From an uncultured Pseudanabaenaceae cyanobacterium (GTDB lineage Bacteria; Cyanobacteriota; Cyanobacteriia; Pseudanabaenales; Pseudanabaenaceae), in NCBI GenBank assembly GCA_937927915.1, contig CALGKB010000011.1, positions 1-64,000 on the forward strand: DNA of 64,000 nucleotides, given 5' to 3'. The notes beneath the pieces were generated by a model, which was given only the letters and a program-made list of their open reading frames with translations, did not search any database and was not told the origin of the DNA. Position numbers and translations under genes: made by a program. Of this stretch, positions 47,117 to 55,930 are shown piece after piece (within the stretch, counting starts at the first letter, position 1; every line of letters starts with the position of its first letter).

Positions 47117-48616
47117 CTACCTCACTTGGATAACGCGCTGCACCTCGACGGGAGGAGCTGCCAAAAACAGAGCGAGGGAGTAGCTACTTTGATTTAGGGT
47201 CGGTCTGATTTCCACAATGTACTCCCCCCCCTTGGGCAAAAGATCATCGTAGCTAGTAATGTTGGTGCTCAAGGGATTTTCCCCCGGTGCTAGCAGATTG
47301 ACAGTGATGCCGTCCCCCTGCGCCTTCAGCCTCAATCTTTGGTCGGGCTTAGCGGTAAACTTGTAGCGTATAATCTGCCCCTTCAAGATGTTCCCCTGCA
47401 GTTGTGTCTCTTGGTCATCGACGAGATTGACACTGTTGTTGATAATTTGCGCTTCTGTCGGAACAGCAGGATTGACAGGTGTTTTCTTCCCAGGTTCAAC
47501 GCTGGGCTGCGGTTTTTCATCTTTGATCACTAGAACCTCTTTCTGGGGCGTACTTCTGCCTAAAATTAAAAACCCGATCGCTGATATGACACACAACAGA
47601 CCAATGATCAACAGACCTGCCCCTGCACTGGACTGCACCTGCACCTTCGTAATTTGAGTTTTGGGCTTGACTGTGGTAGCTCGCGTACGAGGACTGATCA
47701 CGGGCTTGCTATCGGGGGCAACTAAAAAGGCATTGAGGGCTTGCTGTACCTCCTTCACAGATTGATACCGATCGGTAAAACGGTAGCGCACCATACGCCT
47801 CAACACCATTGCCAAACCATTACTCACCTTTGCCTTATCTCGCCAGATAATTTCCCCTGTATCGGGGTCAGTGGGCAAATCCTGGGGGTCAATCCCCGTC
47901 AAGGCACGAATGGCAACCATCCCTGCCGCATAAATATCACTGGTATAGTTAGGACGACCCGCACACTGTTCACTGGGCATATAGCCAGGCGTACCGATCG
48001 TAACCGTAAACCGCGACTGCCCATCCACTATTTCTAGCTTGGCATTTTCATCGGTCATCGCCCGCACCGCCCCAAAGTCAATCAAGACCAGCTTATTATC
48101 GCTATGACGACGAATGAGATTTTCTGGCTTAATATCGCGGTGAATGACATTTTCCGCGTGGACAAACTCCAACACATTCAAAATATCTTTCAAAATCTTG
48201 ATTACCTCTGGCTCCGACAACTGTCTGCCCCGGGGCTTTTCTTGGCTGGCTTTGGTAATATCTGCAGCAGTAATTTCTGTATCTGGCTCTGGTAAGGGCG
48301 CTTCTAAATCCTTGTTGAGGGGCGTCCCCTCGATATACTCCTGCACCAGGAAAAACTCATTGTCCTCCTCAAAATATGCCAACAGCTGGGGAATTTGGTC
48401 ATGCTTGCCCAGTCGCTCTAACGTCTCTGCCTCCGCTGCAAACAAACGCCTGGCTTCCCGAATAAACTCCGGATCATTGCTCGCCGGCTTCAGCTGCTTG
48501 ACCACGCATAAAGGAGACCCCGGTCGCCGTTGGTCCCGAGCTAGATAGGTGCGCCCAAAACCTCCCTTGCCCAGTACCTTCAACAATTTGTAGCGATTAT
48601 CTAAAACCTTACTCAT
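47117..48616 (-). CDS. Membrane Ser/Thr protein kinase
   Basis: The 499-residue protein begins with a Hanks-type kinase (residues ~8-290): glycine loop GKGGFGRTYLARD, VVKQLKP (ATP Lys), HRDIKPENLI, DFGAVRA and GTPGYMPSEQ. A membrane helix follows at about residue 338 (GLLIIGLLCVISAIGFLIL), then a ~100-residue outer domain resembling a pre-peptidase (PPC-type) beta-sandwich (LQGNILKGQIIRYKFTAKPDQ). It could sense an envelope signal. It runs divergently from bicA. Confidence 0.92.
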   Translation of the reverse strand: MSKVLDNRYKLLKVLGKGGFGRTYLARDQRRPGSPLCVVKQLKPASNDPEFIREARRLFAAEAETLERLGKHDQIPQLLAYFEEDNEFFLVQEYIEGTPLNKDLEAPLPEPDTEITAADITKASQEKPRGRQLSEPEVIKILKDILNVLEFVHAENVIHRDIKPENLIRRHSDNKLVLIDFGAVRAMTDENAKLEIVDGQSRFTVTIGTPGYMPSEQCAGRPNYTSDIYAAGMVAIRALTGIDPQDLPTDPDTGEIIWRDKAKVSNGLAMVLRRMVRYRFTDRYQSVKEVQQALNAFLVAPDSKPVISPRTRATTVKPKTQITKVQVQSSAGAGLLIIGLLCVISAIGFLILGRSTPQKEVLVIKDEKPQPSVEPGKKTPVNPAVPTEAQIINNSVNLVDDQETQLQGNILKGQIIRYKFTAKPDQRLRLKAQGDGITVNLLAPGENPLSTNITSYDDLLPKGGEYIVEIRPTLNQSSYSLALFLAAPPVEVQRVIQVR

Positions 48617-48701
48617 ATCACCCCTAAGCTCTTGCCTATAAGACTACCCCGATCCCATAAATAATTGCTCAGTCCTATCTTACACTTACAACTTATAGAC
48701 T

Positions 48702-48721
48702 TAAATCTATGTTAAGATTTA
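48702..48721 (+). promoter_or_regulatory. Inverted repeat upstream of bicA
   Basis: TAAATCT-ATGTTA-AGATTTA is a perfect 7-bp inverted repeat 81 bases before the bicA ATG, in an AT-rich intergenic region (48617-48802). It may be an operator, for example for a LysR-type carbon regulator (CcmR/CmpR class), but I could not fit the known site consensus, and chance in AT-rich DNA cannot be excluded. Confidence 0.4.
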
Positions 48722-48802
48722 GAAATATAGATAATACACTACGATAGATTTTTCTCTAAAGCTGGTAAGTTTATGATTGTTAAATCTCTATAAAAATTTT
48801 CT

Positions 48803-50470
48803 ATGGCGATCACCAATCTGATCAAGTTCAACAACTTGCGCAACGACATCTTGGGGGGGATGACAACGGCGGTTGTGTCTGTCCCTCTGGCACTGACCTT
48901 TGGTATGGCAGCTTTGCAAAGCCCCATTGCTGGTCTCTACGGGGCAATCTGTGTAGGATTATTGGCGGCGTTGTTTGGGGGTACACCCACCCTCATCTCG
49001 GAGCCGACGGGACCTATGACGGTTGTGATGACCTCTGTGGTAGCGGGGCTGACAGCCAGTGCTGGTGACCGTGAAACAGGGATTGCTATGGCATTTACGG
49101 TGGTCATGCTGGCGGGGTTATTTCAAATTTTGTTTGGCTTCTTCAAATTAGGTAAATATATTACTCTGATGCCCTACAGTGTAATTTCTGGCTTCATGTC
49201 AGGGATTGGGGTCATCCTAATTATTCTGCAAATTCCCGCCATCTTAGGACAGAAAGCACCCAAAGGGGGGGTAATGGGGGTTATTCAAAACTTACCAGAT
49301 TTATTGTCCAATGTTAGCCTGCCTGACCTCATTTTAGGGGCATTGACTCTCACTATAATTTTTCTTATTCCTGCGAAGTGGAAGCGCTATTGTCCGCCCC
49401 AATTGTTAGCATTAGTTTTGGGCACGATCATCTCCCTAGTGGCATTTAATGGCACTGATATTCGCCGCATTGGGGAAATTCCTGTGGGCTTACCAGAGTT
49501 TCGGTTTCCGGTATTTAGTCCTGAACAAGCTAACCGAATTCTGGTAGATGGATTAGTGTTGGGAATGTTGGGTTGTATTGATACTCTGTTAACAGCTGTA
49601 ATCGCTGATAGTTTAACCCGTACCCAGCACGATTCCGATAAAGAACTGATTGGGCAGGGAATTGGCAATTTAGTCTCTGGCTTCTGCGGTGGCTTACCGG
49701 GTGCTGGGGCAACTATGGGGACAGTTGTAAACATTCAGACAGGGGCAAAAACAGCGGTTTCTGGTATTTCCCGTGCCCTAATTTTGTTGATCATTGTGTT
49801 AGGGGCAGCTCCCCTCATGCAAAATATCCCTATGGCAGTGTTAGCAGGAATTGCCGTCAAAGTTGGGATTGACATCCTCGATTGGAGCTTCCTCAAGCGT
49901 GCCCATGTGGTTTCCTTGCGGGGTGCTCTGATTATGTACGGAGTGCTAGCTCTGACGGTGTTAGTGGACTTAATCGTGGCAGTGGGAGTAGGGGTATTTA
50001 TTGCCAATATCCTGACCATTGAAAAGCTATCTAATCTACAGTCCCAGGAAGTAAAAACTATCACTGATTCCGATGACGATATGCCCCTTAGCCCCTTGGA
50101 AAAAGAACTGCTCAATCAGGCTAAAGGTAAGGTACTATTGTTCTACTTGAGTGGTCCCATGATTTTTGGGGTAGCAAAAGCAATCGCGCGGGAACATAAT
50201 GCTATGCAGAAGGTAGACACAATTATTATTGACTTGGGGGATGTACCCATGCTGGGTGTTACAGCGTCGCTGGCGATCGAGAACCTCATCAAAGAGGCAG
50301 TGGAAGAGGGGAGAAATGTATTTGTAGCGGGGGCAAAGGGATCAACTAAAGTACGCCTACAGCGGTTGAGAGTGTTGGATTTGATCCCCCCTGAAAATCA
50401 AGTACCTGACCGCAGAATTGCTTTGGAAACTGCAGTGGCTAGTCTGAGAACTGCTAATGTTGCTGTTTAG
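48803..50470 (+). CDS. bicA: Sodium-dependent bicarbonate transporter BicA (SulP family)
   Basis: The 555-residue SulP transporter has a membrane part of about 12-14 helices (residues 1-410) and a C-terminal STAS domain (~440-545, LFYLSGPMIFGVAKAI, DVPMLGVTASLAIEN). Close resemblance to Synechocystis BicA is visible in GGTPTLISEPTGPMTV, LGCIDTLLTAVIADSLTRTQ and GQGIGNLVSG..GGLPGAGATMGT, so bicarbonate is more likely than sulfate. BicA is a low-affinity, high-flux Na+/HCO3- symporter of the CO2-concentrating mechanism. The gene overlaps the next (MrpC-like) by 14 bases, placing it at the head of a Na+/H+ antiporter operon. Confidence 0.93.
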   Translation: MAITNLIKFNNLRNDILGGMTTAVVSVPLALTFGMAALQSPIAGLYGAICVGLLAALFGGTPTLISEPTGPMTVVMTSVVAGLTASAGDRETGIAMAFTVVMLAGLFQILFGFFKLGKYITLMPYSVISGFMSGIGVILIILQIPAILGQKAPKGGVMGVIQNLPDLLSNVSLPDLILGALTLTIIFLIPAKWKRYCPPQLLALVLGTIISLVAFNGTDIRRIGEIPVGLPEFRFPVFSPEQANRILVDGLVLGMLGCIDTLLTAVIADSLTRTQHDSDKELIGQGIGNLVSGFCGGLPGAGATMGTVVNIQTGAKTAVSGISRALILLIIVLGAAPLMQNIPMAVLAGIAVKVGIDILDWSFLKRAHVVSLRGALIMYGVLALTVLVDLIVAVGVGVFIANILTIEKLSNLQSQEVKTITDSDDDMPLSPLEKELLNQAKGKVLLFYLSGPMIFGVAKAIAREHNAMQKVDTIIIDLGDVPMLGVTASLAIENLIKEAVEEGRNVFVAGAKGSTKVRLQRLRVLDLIPPENQVPDRRIALETAVASLRTANVAV

Positions 50471-50810
50471 TAGTACGGCAATAGTTAAGGCATTGGTGCT
50501 GGCGACCGTCACGATCGGTTTCTCGGGCATTTTGTGGAAGAAAAACTTGCTGATGAAGATTATTGCTATGGATGTGATGAGTACGGGGGTGGTGGCATTT
50601 TATGTCTTTATCGCCGCCCGCCGAGGGTTAATCGCCCCTATTTTGTCTGACCGATCGGGTTTGGACTATGGCGATCCTGTACCCCAAGCGGTAATTCTCA
50701 CAGCAATTGTGATTGGATTATCAATCCAGGCGTTGATGTTGGTGGGGGCAATCAAACTGGCTAAGGACCATCCCACTTTAGAAGTAAGCGAAATTGAGGG
50801 TAGGGAATAG
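50457..50810 (+). CDS. mrpC: Mrp Na+/H+ antiporter subunit C
   Basis: The 117-residue protein is a three-helix MrpC/MnhC subunit homologous to NuoK of complex I: KNLLMKIIAMDVMSTGVVAFYV, then DPVPQAVILTAIVIGLSIQALML, the signature of this family. It begins inside the last codons of bicA and its TAG shares a base with the start of mrpD. It is part of the multi-subunit Mrp antiporter in the plasma membrane. Confidence 0.9.
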   Translation: MLLFSSTAIVKALVLATVTIGFSGILWKKNLLMKIIAMDVMSTGVVAFYVFIAARRGLIAPILSDRSGLDYGDPVPQAVILTAIVIGLSIQALMLVGAIKLAKDHPTLEVSEIEGRE

Positions 50811-52234
50811 TGGTAAACTTCACAGTTATCTTCATTTTCTTACCCTTTTTATTAGGTTTCATCGCCTACCTTCTGCCGAAGACCGATCGGTTTTTAGCCA
50901 CTGCTGCCAGTCTTTTGTCAATTATTTTTAGTGCTGTAGTCCTAATTACCCGCCAGGAATTTAACTTGGTTTTAATGGGGAATTTTGGGGTCAGCCTAAC
51001 CGTAGATAATCTGAGTGGCTATTTTATATTAACTAATGGCTTAGTGACCCTGGCGGTAGCGATTTATGGCTGGTTGAAGTCCAAGACTCCCTATTTCTAC
51101 ACCCAACTGACTATTCTGCATGGCAGCGTCAATTCTGTTTTTTGCTGTGCCGATTTTATTACCCTCTATGTAGCCCTAGAAGTGATAGGCATAGCCACAT
51201 TTCTGTTGATTTCCTATCCCCGCCATAACCGATCGATATGGATAGGCTTGCGCTATCTTTTACTGAGTAATACGGTGATGTTATTTTACTTGGTGGGGGC
51301 AGTTTTAGTATTTCAATCCCAGGGTTCCTTTGCCTTTGCGGCTTTGCAGAATGCCTCTGTAGAAGCTATGGTTTTGATCCTGCTGGGTCTCTTGACAAAA
51401 GGGGGAATATTTCTATCGGGAATGTGGTTGCCTTTGACCCATGCCGAATCCGAGAGTCCTGTGTCAGCCACTTTGTCAGGAATTGTGGTAAAGACTGGTA
51501 TTTTTCCGATCATCCGCTGCGCCCAGATGGTAGAAGAATTGGCACCGATCGTGGAAATTTTTAGTACAGGCACTGTCACCCTTGGTGTAGTTTTAGGGAT
51601 GTTTTGTACCGATATTAAGCGCATATTTGCTTTTAGTACAATTTCCCAATTGGGATACGTGCTTATTGGCAGTGAGGGAGCTGGTATCTATGCCTTAGCC
51701 CACGGCGTAGCAAAAGCAGGATTGTTCTTAACCAGTGGCAGTTTAGCAACCCGACAGATAGGTAGCATTCCTCCTATTTCTTTCTCTAATTGGTTAGTAT
51801 TGGCAGTATGTAGCTTATCAATTATGGGTTTACCAGGGCTAGTAGGATTTGGGGCTAAGGAATTAGTTCTAGCTCATCTTCCTCAGTGGCAAAATTGGTG
51901 GTTAAACCTCTGTAGCATTGGTACAGTTATTATCCTATGTCCCGTTTTACTAATTCCTTGCCAAGGTAAAACCCTAGAGAAAGAAAGTAGCCCTGGTCTC
52001 TTCCTCGCCGCTGTCACAGTAATTGCTAGCTTGCTGTATCCTCATGCCTACAAATGGGACAAAATTATTAAAACGGTGGCTACAATTGCCCTGGGGTTGG
52101 GTATTTACTATCGAGGGTGGCGGCGCTGGCAATGGCAATATAATTCCCCCTTGGAGCAGCTAGAAAATCTTTTGAGTTTGCTGACTATTGTTGCCGTTTT
52201 ATTGTTTACTATTCTCGCCTATGAACTACCTTAA
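50810..52234 (+). CDS. mrpD: Mrp antiporter large subunit, MrpD-like
   Basis: The 474-residue protein has about 14 membrane helices and belongs to the proton-pumping-type antiporter subunits shared by MrpA/MrpD and NuoL/M/N. Recognisable are TILHGSVNSVFCCADFITLYVALEVIGIATF, the conserved helix LLGLLTKGGIFLSGMWLPLTHAESESPVSATLSGIVVKTG (key Lys and His) and IKRIFAFSTISQLGYVLIG. It starts with GTG at 50810. It is the only full-size subunit of this type in the cluster. Confidence 0.92.
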   Translation: MVNFTVIFIFLPFLLGFIAYLLPKTDRFLATAASLLSIIFSAVVLITRQEFNLVLMGNFGVSLTVDNLSGYFILTNGLVTLAVAIYGWLKSKTPYFYTQLTILHGSVNSVFCCADFITLYVALEVIGIATFLLISYPRHNRSIWIGLRYLLLSNTVMLFYLVGAVLVFQSQGSFAFAALQNASVEAMVLILLGLLTKGGIFLSGMWLPLTHAESESPVSATLSGIVVKTGIFPIIRCAQMVEELAPIVEIFSTGTVTLGVVLGMFCTDIKRIFAFSTISQLGYVLIGSEGAGIYALAHGVAKAGLFLTSGSLATRQIGSIPPISFSNWLVLAVCSLSIMGLPGLVGFGAKELVLAHLPQWQNWWLNLCSIGTVIILCPVLLIPCQGKTLEKESSPGLFLAAVTVIASLLYPHAYKWDKIIKTVATIALGLGIYYRGWRRWQWQYNSPLEQLENLLSLLTIVAVLLFTILAYELP

Positions 52235-52595
52235 TTTATTGCTCAGGTTATTGATTTGGTTTTTACTCACTGCTGACTTAAGTCTTGCCAATATCGTCAT
52301 TGGTTTGGCAGTAGTATTAGTCTTACCTAACAGAAAAGGGCGGGCAACACTAGGGGATTGGCTCCGGGTAATAGGGAACATCCTTATCTCCATACCCCTT
52401 GCCTATGTAGAGGCTCTGGAAATGATTTTCTTTCCCCACTCAGCGGAGGAAGTGACCTTAGAAAGGGTGAGAGTTAATCGTATTCCTGCCCTCATTTTCC
52501 TAGATATATTTGTGATTACATTTACCCCCAAAACGATCGTCCTTAACTATCGTGACGATGGCTACTATGAAGTGCACCGGGTGAAACGGCAATGA
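52221..52595 (+). CDS. mrpE: Mrp antiporter subunit E
   Basis: The ~124-residue MrpE subunit has two N-terminal membrane helices (YLNLLLRLLIWFLLTADLSLANIVIGLAVVLVL) and a soluble tail (RVRVNRIPALIFLDIFVITFTPKTIVLN) typical of the family. I use ATG 52221, which overlaps the end of mrpD by 14 bases, instead of the listed 52188, because MNYLNLL begins the first helix. The stop overlaps the mrpF start. Confidence 0.88.
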   Translation: MNYLNLLLRLLIWFLLTADLSLANIVIGLAVVLVLPNRKGRATLGDWLRVIGNILISIPLAYVEALEMIFFPHSAEEVTLERVRVNRIPALIFLDIFVITFTPKTIVLNYRDDGYYEVHRVKRQ

Positions 52596-52843
52596 CTGTA
52601 GTTTTAATGCTTATGCTGGCAGTTCTCCTGATTCCCATTTATGTAGGAGCTAGGGACCAAGACGTATGGCAAAGAATGTTGGCTTTTTGTAGTATTGCCA
52701 CCAAAACATCGATTATGATTTTAGTAATCGCAGTGATTCGCAGTGATTGGGCAATCGGGGTAGTAGGGGTGCTAATTCTCAGCTTAGGTAACGCTGCTTT
52801 GATGTTGTTGGCACATATTCTACGGCGGTTAAATGAGCTATGA
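52592..52843 (+). CDS. mrpF: Mrp antiporter subunit F
   Basis: The 83-residue protein has three membrane helices and the pattern of MrpF/MnhF (DVWQRMLAFCSIATKTSIMILVIAVI, SDWAIGVVGVLILSLGNAALML). It overlaps mrpE and mrpG by four bases each, as is usual in this operon, so translation of the small subunits is coupled. Confidence 0.88.
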   Translation: MTVVLMLMLAVLLIPIYVGARDQDVWQRMLAFCSIATKTSIMILVIAVIRSDWAIGVVGVLILSLGNAALMLLAHILRRLNEL

Positions 52844-53118
52844 AAGAATTTATTAGTTACACCTTGATTTCTCTGGGCTTAGTGTTTTGGTTGTGGGGGA
52901 CTTTACCCCTGTTGGGCAAACGATCGGTATTGTTCAAACTGCATAGTCTCTCGGTGTCGGACACTTTAGGTTCTATGGCAATCACCGTTGGTTTATTAGT
53001 ACATTTTCCCGCGGATTGGTCCCTGTTATTTTTGGCATTAATTTCCTTGGCAATTTGGAACACAATTTTAGGCTACGTCTTAGCTTTTTGTTCGCGGGGA
53101 GGGCAGAAAGATGGATGA
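52840..53118 (+). CDS. mrpG: Mrp antiporter subunit G
   Basis: The 92-residue protein is a three-helix MrpG/MnhG subunit: LGLVFWLWGTLPLLGKRSVLFKLHSLSVSDTLGSMAITVGLL is close to the family motif in which a helix is followed by a conserved Arg/Leu-His-Asp segment. It overlaps mrpF by four and the next gene by eight bases. Confidence 0.88.
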   Translation: MKEFISYTLISLGLVFWLWGTLPLLGKRSVLFKLHSLSVSDTLGSMAITVGLLVHFPADWSLLFLALISLAIWNTILGYVLAFCSRGGQKDG

Positions 53119-53626
53119 GTTTTATATAGTCCCGATCGTGTTTTTGTTACCCCTTAGTGCTGTGATGGTGGTGATGCAGACAAATCCCTATACTGCCTTG
53201 GTAATGCGGGGTATTTTAGGGGCAGTTTCCGCATTGGTATACGCCTTGCTGGGAGCGGCGGATGTCTCTCTTACCGATGCCTTAGTGGGAACCATGTTAT
53301 CAATTACCCTCTATGCCATTGCTGTGCGGTCTTCTTTGAGCATGAGGATTGGGGCAATCAAATTAGACAAAAATGACCCTCTACTTGTTCCAATTGCGAA
53401 ATCCTTGAGCAAATACTTTATGCGTTTGGAAATAGTGGAGTTTCCCGATGGGGATCACCTCAACTCTGCCCTAGAGAAGGGGGAAATTCACTGTAAATTC
53501 GATCGCCATGAAACAGAGGGGTGTAAATTATTAATTCGTGTACCGCGCTTGTACGAAATTCTCACTGCTGCAGGTATACCCAATTTAAGTATTGTTTTGT
53601 TGGAGAAAACAGGGGCTGGACTATGA
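53111..53626 (+). CDS. MrpA C-terminal-like (DUF4040) subunit with soluble tail
   Basis: Residues ~5-80 are three membrane helices matching the DUF4040 part found in the C-terminal region of MrpA and in hydrogenase subunit MbhD (MRGILGAVSALVYALLGAADVSLTDALVGTMLSITLYAIAVR). Residues ~85-171 form a soluble domain (KLDKNDPLLVPIAKSLSKYFMRLEIVEFPDGD...LYEILTAAGI) that I do not recognise. In cyanobacteria MrpA is typically represented by this separate short protein. It overlaps mrpG and the following mrpB. Confidence 0.82.
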   Translation: MDEFYIVPIVFLLPLSAVMVVMQTNPYTALVMRGILGAVSALVYALLGAADVSLTDALVGTMLSITLYAIAVRSSLSMRIGAIKLDKNDPLLVPIAKSLSKYFMRLEIVEFPDGDHLNSALEKGEIHCKFDRHETEGCKLLIRVPRLYEILTAAGIPNLSIVLLEKTGAGL

Positions 53627-54285
53627 AAATTCTTGCAACTATATGTGGTTTTCTTATCTGTTGGCAGCTAGTATCTATTGCTACTAATACTGATTATGAC
53701 CCAGGGTTTGACATCGTAGGAGTCATCGCTAAATTTGCAGGTATTCCAAACACGGTCTCTGCTATTATTCTCCACAATCGCCTGTACGATACTATCTTTG
53801 AAGTGACAGTATTTACAATTGCCATTATGGGGGTTGGCTACTTACTGGCAAACGAATCCCCTGTAGAAAAGGTCTACCAATTTACTGATGCCCCTTCTAT
53901 CGTTCTAGCCCGCTTGGGAGCGACAATTGCCACCCTAGTAGGGATTGAGTTAGCTATTAGAGGTCACTTGAGTCCTGGGGGAGGTTTTGCCGCTGGTGTA
54001 GCAGGGGGGACAGCGATCGGTCTCGTGGCAATTACTTCCTCTAGGGAATACATGGAAAAAATTTACAAGCGTTGGCAAGCTAACACTCTAGAAAAAGTTT
54101 CTGTTACCATATTTATAGTCCTCGCTTTACTAAGTTTAGTGGGCGTACAGTTAATTTATGGTAAGTACGGCGATCTATTTAGCGGGGGTTGGATTCCCAT
54201 CTTAAATATCCTAGTGGCGGTAAAAGTTGCTCTGGGTTCTTGGTCAGCCATTTTCTTATTTATTCGCTATCGGGGGCTATTATAG
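53623..54285 (+). CDS. mrpB: Mrp antiporter subunit B
   Basis: The 220-residue protein combines an N-terminal helix pair with the MrpB/MnhB domain in the second half: GIELAIRGHLSPGGGFAAGVAGGTAIGLVAIT carries the conserved G-H-x-x-P-G-G-G-F motif. About six membrane helices in all; the N-terminal ~90 residues resemble the MbhE/MrpA-tail region. It is the last gene of the bicA-mrp cluster and abuts the convergent DUF3318 gene. Confidence 0.88.
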   Translation: MKILATICGFLICWQLVSIATNTDYDPGFDIVGVIAKFAGIPNTVSAIILHNRLYDTIFEVTVFTIAIMGVGYLLANESPVEKVYQFTDAPSIVLARLGATIATLVGIELAIRGHLSPGGGFAAGVAGGTAIGLVAITSSREYMEKIYKRWQANTLEKVSVTIFIVLALLSLVGVQLIYGKYGDLFSGGWIPILNILVAVKVALGSWSAIFLFIRYRGLL

Positions 54286-54900
54286 TTACTCGGCATCGGG
54301 GGGGACAGCCACCTGGGAAATTCCTACCAGGGAACGTAAATTCTGGCAGCGTATTAACTCTATAAAGTTGGGAATTTGTCTTCCCTCCAATTTAGCTACA
54401 TCTTGGATACCTTCCAGTAAACTCTTGGCGGCTACAACGTCAGTATAACCCCGTCTCTGTGCCACCCGAATTGCCTCACTGTCTGATTCCAAAAAGACCT
54501 TAGTGCCCTTGCTTCGCCCCTCGATTTGTTTGAAGGCAATAGCTATTAACAAAACCCCCACTCCTAAACCTGTAATATCCCCCTCAATTGCCTCCCAAAT
54601 TGTGCCTGCCAAGCCAAACAAACTCACCAGCTGGTATGTGCCCCATTGAAAGTAGCGTGTCTGCTGTCGCCAGGAAACTTCCGCTAAAAACAGCAAATCC
54701 CGTTCATTGACAGGCAGATTAAACCAGTAACGAAAGTTAATCTTAATTTGAGTATCAGGTCGCCAGGGTAGGATGGGGGTACTGCTGATAACCTGGGCTT
54801 GGTCAGGGCGCTGGGTGACGATCGTGTGCATCCGCCAGGAGGCGGGCAGTAAATCCATGAGGCGGTTAATTTCACTACTGGGATGTGTAACGGAATCCAT
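54286..54900 (-). CDS. DUF3318-like cyanobacterial protein
   Basis: The 204-residue protein resembles the DUF3318 family of cyanobacteria: EINRLMDLLPASWRMHTIV near the start, then RDLLFLAEVSWRQQTRYFQWGTYQL, a membrane-like stretch (LVSLFGLAGTIWEAIEGDITGLGVGVLLIAIAF) and GYTDVVAAKSLLEGIQDVAKLEGRQ. Function unknown. The mrpB gene ends on the base before it. The family name is from memory of the opening motif. Confidence 0.65.
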   Translation of the reverse strand: MDSVTHPSSEINRLMDLLPASWRMHTIVTQRPDQAQVISSTPILPWRPDTQIKINFRYWFNLPVNERDLLFLAEVSWRQQTRYFQWGTYQLVSLFGLAGTIWEAIEGDITGLGVGVLLIAIAFKQIEGRSKGTKVFLESDSEAIRVAQRRGYTDVVAAKSLLEGIQDVAKLEGRQIPNFIELIRCQNLRSLVGISQVAVPPDAE

Positions 54901-55714: not shown

Positions 55715-55930
55715 ATGCGTCAGCGCACCAGTATTGTAGACGATCGTGGTTTGATTAACAACTTTGCCTACGAGCCGCCCATGTACATTGATGACGAACC
55801 CCGCTTCGGTTTTACAGAATTTGCGGAGAAGTGGAACGGGCGTTTTGCTATGATTGGCTTTGTTTTGTTATTGGCAATTGAAGCGGTGACAGGGCACGGC
55901 TTGGTGAGCATTATACGATCGATTTACTGA
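55715..55930 (+). CDS. High-light-inducible protein (one-helix CAB-like)
   Basis: The 71-residue protein has the HLIP core FAEKWNGRFAMIGFVLLLAIEAVTGHGL, one membrane helix with the ExxNxRxAMxGF chlorophyll-binding motif of the Lhc family. HLIPs (ScpB-E) bind chlorophyll and carotenoid, protect during photosystem II assembly and take part in chlorophyll recycling. The ~35-residue hydrophilic N-terminus is typical of cyanobacterial forms. A candidate HLR1 site lies upstream. Confidence 0.95.
   Translation: MRQRTSIVDDRGLINNFAYEPPMYIDDEPRFGFTEFAEKWNGRFAMIGFVLLLAIEAVTGHGLVSIIRSIY

Follow-up and report, generated by a model that had tools for sequence, protein, structure and literature searches.

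A bicarbonate importer gene overlaps a cyanobacterial-type mrp cluster in a Pseudanabaenaceae genome and forms a predicted operon with it

The window analysed here is a stretch of 64,000 nucleotides (contig CALGKB010000011.1, assembly GCA_937927915.1) from an uncultured Pseudanabaenaceae cyanobacterium, whose genome of 2.40 Mb in 13 contigs is 98.9% complete. The list of open reading frames and the sequence itself place eight genes on the plus strand between positions 48803 and 54285: bicA, mrpC, mrpD, mrpE, mrpF, mrpG, a short form of mrpA (mrpA') and mrpB. The features are:

48617-48802, + strand: presumed promoter and 5' leader, between a kinase gene and bicA; the only intergenic region of the block
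48803-50470, + strand: bicA, predicted Na+/HCO3- symporter (SulP/SLC26 plus STAS), 555 aa; NF050096, structures 6ki1/6ki2, ligand residues
50457-50810, + strand: mrpC, 117 aa; NF005620, 166.6 bits (cut-off 91), and PF00420
50810-52234, + strand: mrpD, 474 aa; NF005564, 557 bits (cut-off 439), and Glu/Lys residues
52221-52595, + strand: mrpE, 124 aa; PF01899 recognised in 8 of 9 homologues of the alignment, with a weak match (E 0.001) for the window protein itself
52592-52843, + strand: mrpF, 83 aa; position and conservation
52840-53118, + strand: mrpG, 92 aa; PF03334, 56.3 bits (cut-off 23.4)
53111-53626, + strand: mrpA', 171 aa; PF13244 and NF005628, 190 bits (cut-off 151)
53623-54285, + strand: mrpB, 220 aa; NF009219, 333 bits (cut-off 179), and PF04039

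Neighbouring genes overlap at all seven junctions: by 14 bp at bicA/mrpC (50457-50470, from the mrpC ATG at 50457 to the end of the bicA stop codon TAG at 50468-50470), 1 bp at C/D, 14 bp at D/E, 4 bp at E/F, 4 bp at F/G, 8 bp at G/A' and 4 bp at A'/B. The D/E overlap is that obtained with the mrpE ATG at 52221; the TTG at 52188 given in the reading frame list is a less likely start. An earlier note on this DNA had described both the overlap of bicA with mrpC and the run of overlaps through mrpD-E-F-G-A'-B to position 54285, and both descriptions are correct; its word 'fused' is not, as it is the genes that overlap, while each encodes a protein of its own and there is no protein fusion. On the 5' side lies a Ser/Thr-kinase gene (47117-48616) divergent from bicA, and on the 3' side a convergent DUF3318 gene (54286-54900) that directly adjoins mrpB; the two isolate the block and leave 48617-48802 as the single stretch of intergenic DNA, where the main promoter is to be expected. 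Further along the window, the small reading frame at 55715-55930 resembles, by eye, a high-light-inducible (Hlip) protein.

The region 48617-48802 is partly conserved in the sister genome G226 (CTCTAAA, TAAGTTT and, near the start codon, CTATAAAAATTTT). The palindrome AAATCT-N6-AGATTT 5' of bicA was considered as a regulator site and dropped, since it is not conserved in G226. The RbcR consensus ATTA(G/A)-N5-(C/T)TAAT has no match in 48617-48802 with up to one mismatch, and its count across the whole window is at chance level; with the motif absent and the palindrome not conserved, no regulator is claimed. Promoter- and terminator-like matches are no more numerous in the region than expected from shuffled sequence and were given no positive weight. 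The earlier note had named a strong promoter and terminator at the boundary of bicA and mrpC as grounds for rejecting its reading. Neither was seen: there is no intergenic DNA at this junction, and a sequence scan found no terminator-like site. The block is thus a predicted single operon in which we infer co-transcription of all eight genes. The tight bicA/mrpC overlap would also allow translational coupling, of which it is no proof.

The window BicA scores above the NCBI curated equivalog cut-off (NF050096, 903.2 bits against 880, residues 1-547) and has a SulP membrane domain (PF00916, 12-379) and a C-terminal STAS domain (PF01740, 440-534). The closest solved structures are 6ki1 and 6ki2, annotated merely as 'low affinity sulfate transporter', which we take to be the structure of Synechocystis BicA. 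HCO3- and Na+ are bound in Synechocystis BicA by T69, D258, T262, G300, A301 and T302 (PMC13249358), and in an alignment with a one-residue offset in the mapping all six letters are kept in the window protein (T69, D260, T264, G302, A303, T304). The window BicA is, by prediction, a Na+-dependent HCO3- importer.

Among the Mrp proteins, MrpC, MrpD, MrpA' and MrpB pass curated NCBIfam cut-offs and MrpG passes its Pfam cut-off. A Pfam profile search gave no convincing match for MrpF, which shares 66-88% identity with the product of the gene in the corresponding place of other cyanobacterial mrp clusters. MrpD is the only antiporter-like (NuoL/M/N-type) subunit encoded in the cluster; in an alignment with structures of the Mbh and complex I type, its proton-path Glu and Lys residues are conserved. 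MrpA' consists of an MbhD domain and an additional C-terminal domain and lacks the NuoL-like half of canonical MrpA, and the gene at this place is likewise short in the other cyanobacterial clusters examined. With no full-length MrpA with NuoL-like domain, as in group 1/2 Mrp, in the cluster (A' has 171 aa and MbhD only), its predicted products class it as cyanobacterial-type Mrp (CPA3) rather than canonical group 1/2; cyanobacterial mrp clusters are described as irregular in order and content (PMC5703873). Beyond MbhD, the C-terminal domain of MrpA' has a weak NlpA-lipoprotein-like match (79-128), and the N-terminal extension of MrpB, in front of the MnhB domain, aligns with C-terminal MrpA models, as if a part of MrpA had moved.

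In the whole genome one BicA scores above the cut-off, and there is one distant SulP paralogue; MrpC is encoded once, and so is an above-cut-off MrpD. Neither an SbtA nor a member of the NMT1_2 family, to which CmpA and NrtA should belong, was found in this 98.9% complete genome, so that BicA is likely its only known HCO3- transporter and probably the sole representative of the three known cyanobacterial kinds. Two CO2-uptake proteins of the ChpXY/Cup type are encoded in the genome; a ChpXY/Cup gene adjoins an NdhD-like gene at 80468-83049 of the same contig, about 26 kb past the operon and outside the window. There are also four PF00999 antiporters, one of which, on a different contig, is an NhaS3 orthologue with 63% identity.

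The sister genome G226 has the whole bicA-mrp block with the same flanking genes, and the junction of bicA stop and mrpC start is conserved. Among the matches listed, only these two genomes have a bicA-mrpC overlap; the next-tightest spacers measure, according to the choice of start codon, 9-36, 14 and 35-53 bp. The window's gene order and strand recur in Gloeomargaritales VI4D9 (L065), Anabaena sp. UHCC 0204 (L108) and the genomes G135 and G222, and the other bicA-(nhaS3-)mrpCDEFGAB clusters among the matches listed differ in having a spacer of at least 9 bp or nhaS3 in between. The locus is a compact example of a gene neighbourhood that is widespread in cyanobacteria, and what is peculiar to the window and G226 is the tightest bicA-mrpC junction among the matches listed, together with the encoding of NhaS3 elsewhere in the window genome. 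We rejected the idea that the linkage compensates for a missing SbtA: an above-cut-off SbtA is present in 11 of the 17 tested genomes with direct linkage. The six without one are the window genome, G226, G048, G049, G096 and G120; with only six of 17, the absence of SbtA is common to the window genome and G226 but no rule for the bicA-mrp arrangement.

How frequent such linkage is was judged from BicA loci of genomes sampled across the class (156 loci among the matches listed, 147 of them judgeable); as the matches listed are the top-scoring ones, low-scoring BicA proteins, for example those of alpha-cyanobacteria, are under-represented in all counts. Mrp genes follow bicA on the same strand in 57 of the 147 loci among the matches listed: 34 have the order bicA-nhaS3-mrp, 22 have bicA-mrp and one has the mrp genes 5.9 kb away. 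The gene between bicA and mrpC in the bicA-nhaS3-mrp clusters is of the PF00999/CPA2 type. NhaS3 without Mrp follows bicA in a further 24 loci, a P-type ATPase in two and no tested cation exporter in 64, so that NhaS3, Mrp or both are found after bicA in 81 of the 147 loci among the matches listed. Since there is usually one mrp cluster per genome, chance would place it just 3' of bicA in far less than 1% of genomes, and the arrangement seen in 57 of 147 loci is not a chance one. The gene after bicA is thus very often a Na+/H+ antiporter from one or both of two unrelated families, and linkage that recurs in the forms bicA-nhaS3, bicA-nhaS3-mrp and bicA-mrp would hardly arise unless the combination were selected for. 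Nor do these frequencies support the rarity implied by the earlier note.

Several loci of the survey have other neighbours. In two loci of the window's own family (L157 in G272 and L158 in G219) a P-type cation ATPase of 898-922 aa lies almost directly 3' of bicA; a role as Na+ pump is not supported, as the best models for L158 are Ca2+ ATPases of the PMR1/SERCA type, below cut-off. The next gene after bicA in L177, L288 and L294, on the strand of bicA, encodes a protein that looks like SbtA, which would place two Na+-dependent HCO3- transporters side by side, and L177, L188 and L220 have, by eye, a divergent LysR-type regulator 5' of bicA. Locus L156, from a genome of the window's genus (G296), encodes a BicA that is 66% identical to that of the window and has a convergent gene after bicA; mrpC was not found in this genome, whose assembly is fragmented, and the operon may thus not be universal within the genus.

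In the BicA tree, the window and G226 proteins group with five BicA proteins of the Gloeomargaritales type (f17) with 100/99 support, all five directly linked to mrp, and a tree that unites the BicA proteins of the entire family of the window in one clade is rejected (p-AU 1.2e-6). The Mrp proteins of the window do not group with those of f17 but sit on a long branch elsewhere, in a quick tree with long branches; a joint horizontal transfer of the whole cassette is not supported, as the Mrp proteins fail to follow the BicA grouping. Mapped on the BicA tree, neighbour labels change 46 times overall, and for direct Mrp linkage there are 13 changes, of which well-supported branches force at least five: the arrangement next to bicA was lost and/or remade many times. 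This bears on the view that the block is a relic, an old bicA-nhaS3-mrp cluster that was trimmed in this lineage, has no regulatory meaning and persists through drift or co-inheritance. That bicA-nhaS3-mrp is the commonest linked form among the matches listed fits such a history, and the NhaS3 orthologue on another contig would agree with a loss of nhaS3 from the middle of the cluster or its relocation from there. However, links were repeatedly broken or remade, and the junction is tighter than that of all other direct bicA-mrp loci among the matches listed and conserved with G226; we consider a mere relic very improbable.

The reading that we prefer, with a probability of roughly three in four (0.77), is that the block is one transcription unit for a self-contained Na+ cycle of bicarbonate uptake. 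HCO3- would enter together with Na+ via BicA, and the seven-gene Mrp complex, by its predicted activity, would exchange Na+ for protons at the expense of the proton-motive force and so uphold the Na+ gradient. The sum of the cycle would be a net uptake of H+ and HCO3- powered by the proton-motive force, and the imported protons could neutralise the alkali that remains after dehydration of HCO3- to supply Rubisco with CO2. In its favour we count the overlap chain, the conservation in G226, the BicA ligands, the MrpD residues, the lack of a detectable SbtA or CmpA/NrtA-type protein in the genome, the recurrence of the linkage and published data from Nostoc sp. PCC 7120. In that organism bicA and an NhaS3-like antiporter gene form the operon all1304-all1303, with a separate mrp operon (all1837-all1843), and upon a CO2 step-down the two operons are up 8.7-fold and 5.4-fold, respectively (PMC7699953); bicA, the NhaS3-like gene and the mrp genes fall into one expression cluster (PMC4915528). 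Nostoc thus resembles the window in having bicA co-operonic with a Na+/H+ antiporter and Mrp co-induced with bicA at low CO2, but the linked exporter is NhaS3-like (CPA2) with mrp apart, whereas in the window Mrp is linked and NhaS3 is encoded elsewhere. Regulation of the window block by low CO2 would be expected by analogy.

Against the Na+ cycle we count that this Mrp lacks the NuoL-like half of MrpA, that 64 of the 147 BicA loci among the matches listed have no adjacent tested cation exporter, so that linkage is not required, and that, with four other antiporters of the PF00999 family in the genome, the main Na+ exporter may be one other than Mrp. In Synechocystis, moreover, the Mrp-like complex is proposed to support Na+-driven HCO3- uptake but is co-regulated with SbtA rather than BicA (PMC4390856), and BicA is constitutive (PMC13249358). 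The mnh/mrp genes slr2006-slr2013 of the NdhR regulon thus share with the window the proposed tie of Mrp to Na+-driven HCO3- uptake (PMC4390856), and differ in their duplicated C and D subunits (PMC5703873), in the SbtA co-regulation and in that no linkage to bicA is reported (PMC4390856).

Mrp could instead serve general Na+ and pH homeostasis in a module for alkaline or saline conditions, which would include BicA since HCO3- is the main carbon source at high pH; pH or salt, and not carbon, would then control both, and their fluxes would not be specially coupled. Anabaena mrpA and Aphanothece mrp have been tied to Na+ and alkaline pH (as cited in PMC5703873), and in one study the Synechocystis mrp-operon and nhaS3 transcripts were up at pH 10 (PMC12382314). 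The mrp cluster of Aphanothece halophytica (mrpCD1D2EFGAB) has the same cyanobacterial C-D-E-F-G-A-B order as the window and mediates Na+/H+ antiport in E. coli (likewise cited there), but it has two mrpD genes, and linkage to bicA is not reported in the text consulted. However, mrp and bicA of Nostoc rise on a CO2 step-down (PMC7699953), and a pH or salt module alone leaves the varying identity of the bicA-linked exporter (NhaS3, Mrp or both) unexplained, and we regard this explanation as rather unlikely.

The overlap also invites closer forms of coupling. If BicA and Mrp formed a physical complex, Na+ could be handed over locally and the ratio of the proteins be fixed by translational coupling, for which the gene overlap is unusually tight; combinations of Mrp-family membrane modules with other modules are known, as in Mbh and complex I. 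Most BicA loci among the matches listed have no directly linked Mrp, though, and the published structure shows BicA as a homodimer (PMC13249358); we consider such a complex extremely unlikely. A bolder version, in which obligatory coupling (translational, possibly in a complex) turns BicA and Mrp into a de facto H+/HCO3- symporter that is the lineage's only means of HCO3- uptake and replaces SbtA and BCT1, appears improbable to us.

For the preferred reading of a Na+ cycle, the part of the earlier interpretation that stands is that bicarbonate importer and Na+ exporter would be made together, which is well supported by the overlap chain, the single 5' intergenic region and the recurrence of an antiporter in 81 of 147 loci among the matches listed. 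The 'stoichiometric linkage' it also proposed has to be given up, because co-transcription fixes neither protein nor flux ratios. Nor is the functional coupling of Mrp and bicarbonate uptake a new idea: it has been proposed before (PMC4390856, PMC4915528, PMC7699953). Our literature search found no paper on bicA-mrp linkage or on the antiporter-after-bicA pattern, but key earlier work was outside its reach and we do not claim the pattern as unpublished.

The data provide comparative-genomic support for the long-standing, tentative idea that cyanobacteria rely on Mrp and NhaS3 antiporters to power the Na+-dependent uptake of bicarbonate. For the engineering of carbon-concentrating mechanisms they suggest co-expressing bicA with a matched Na+ exporter. 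Should a culturable relative exist, this small-genome lineage, in which no HCO3- transporter other than BicA was detected, would offer a clean test.
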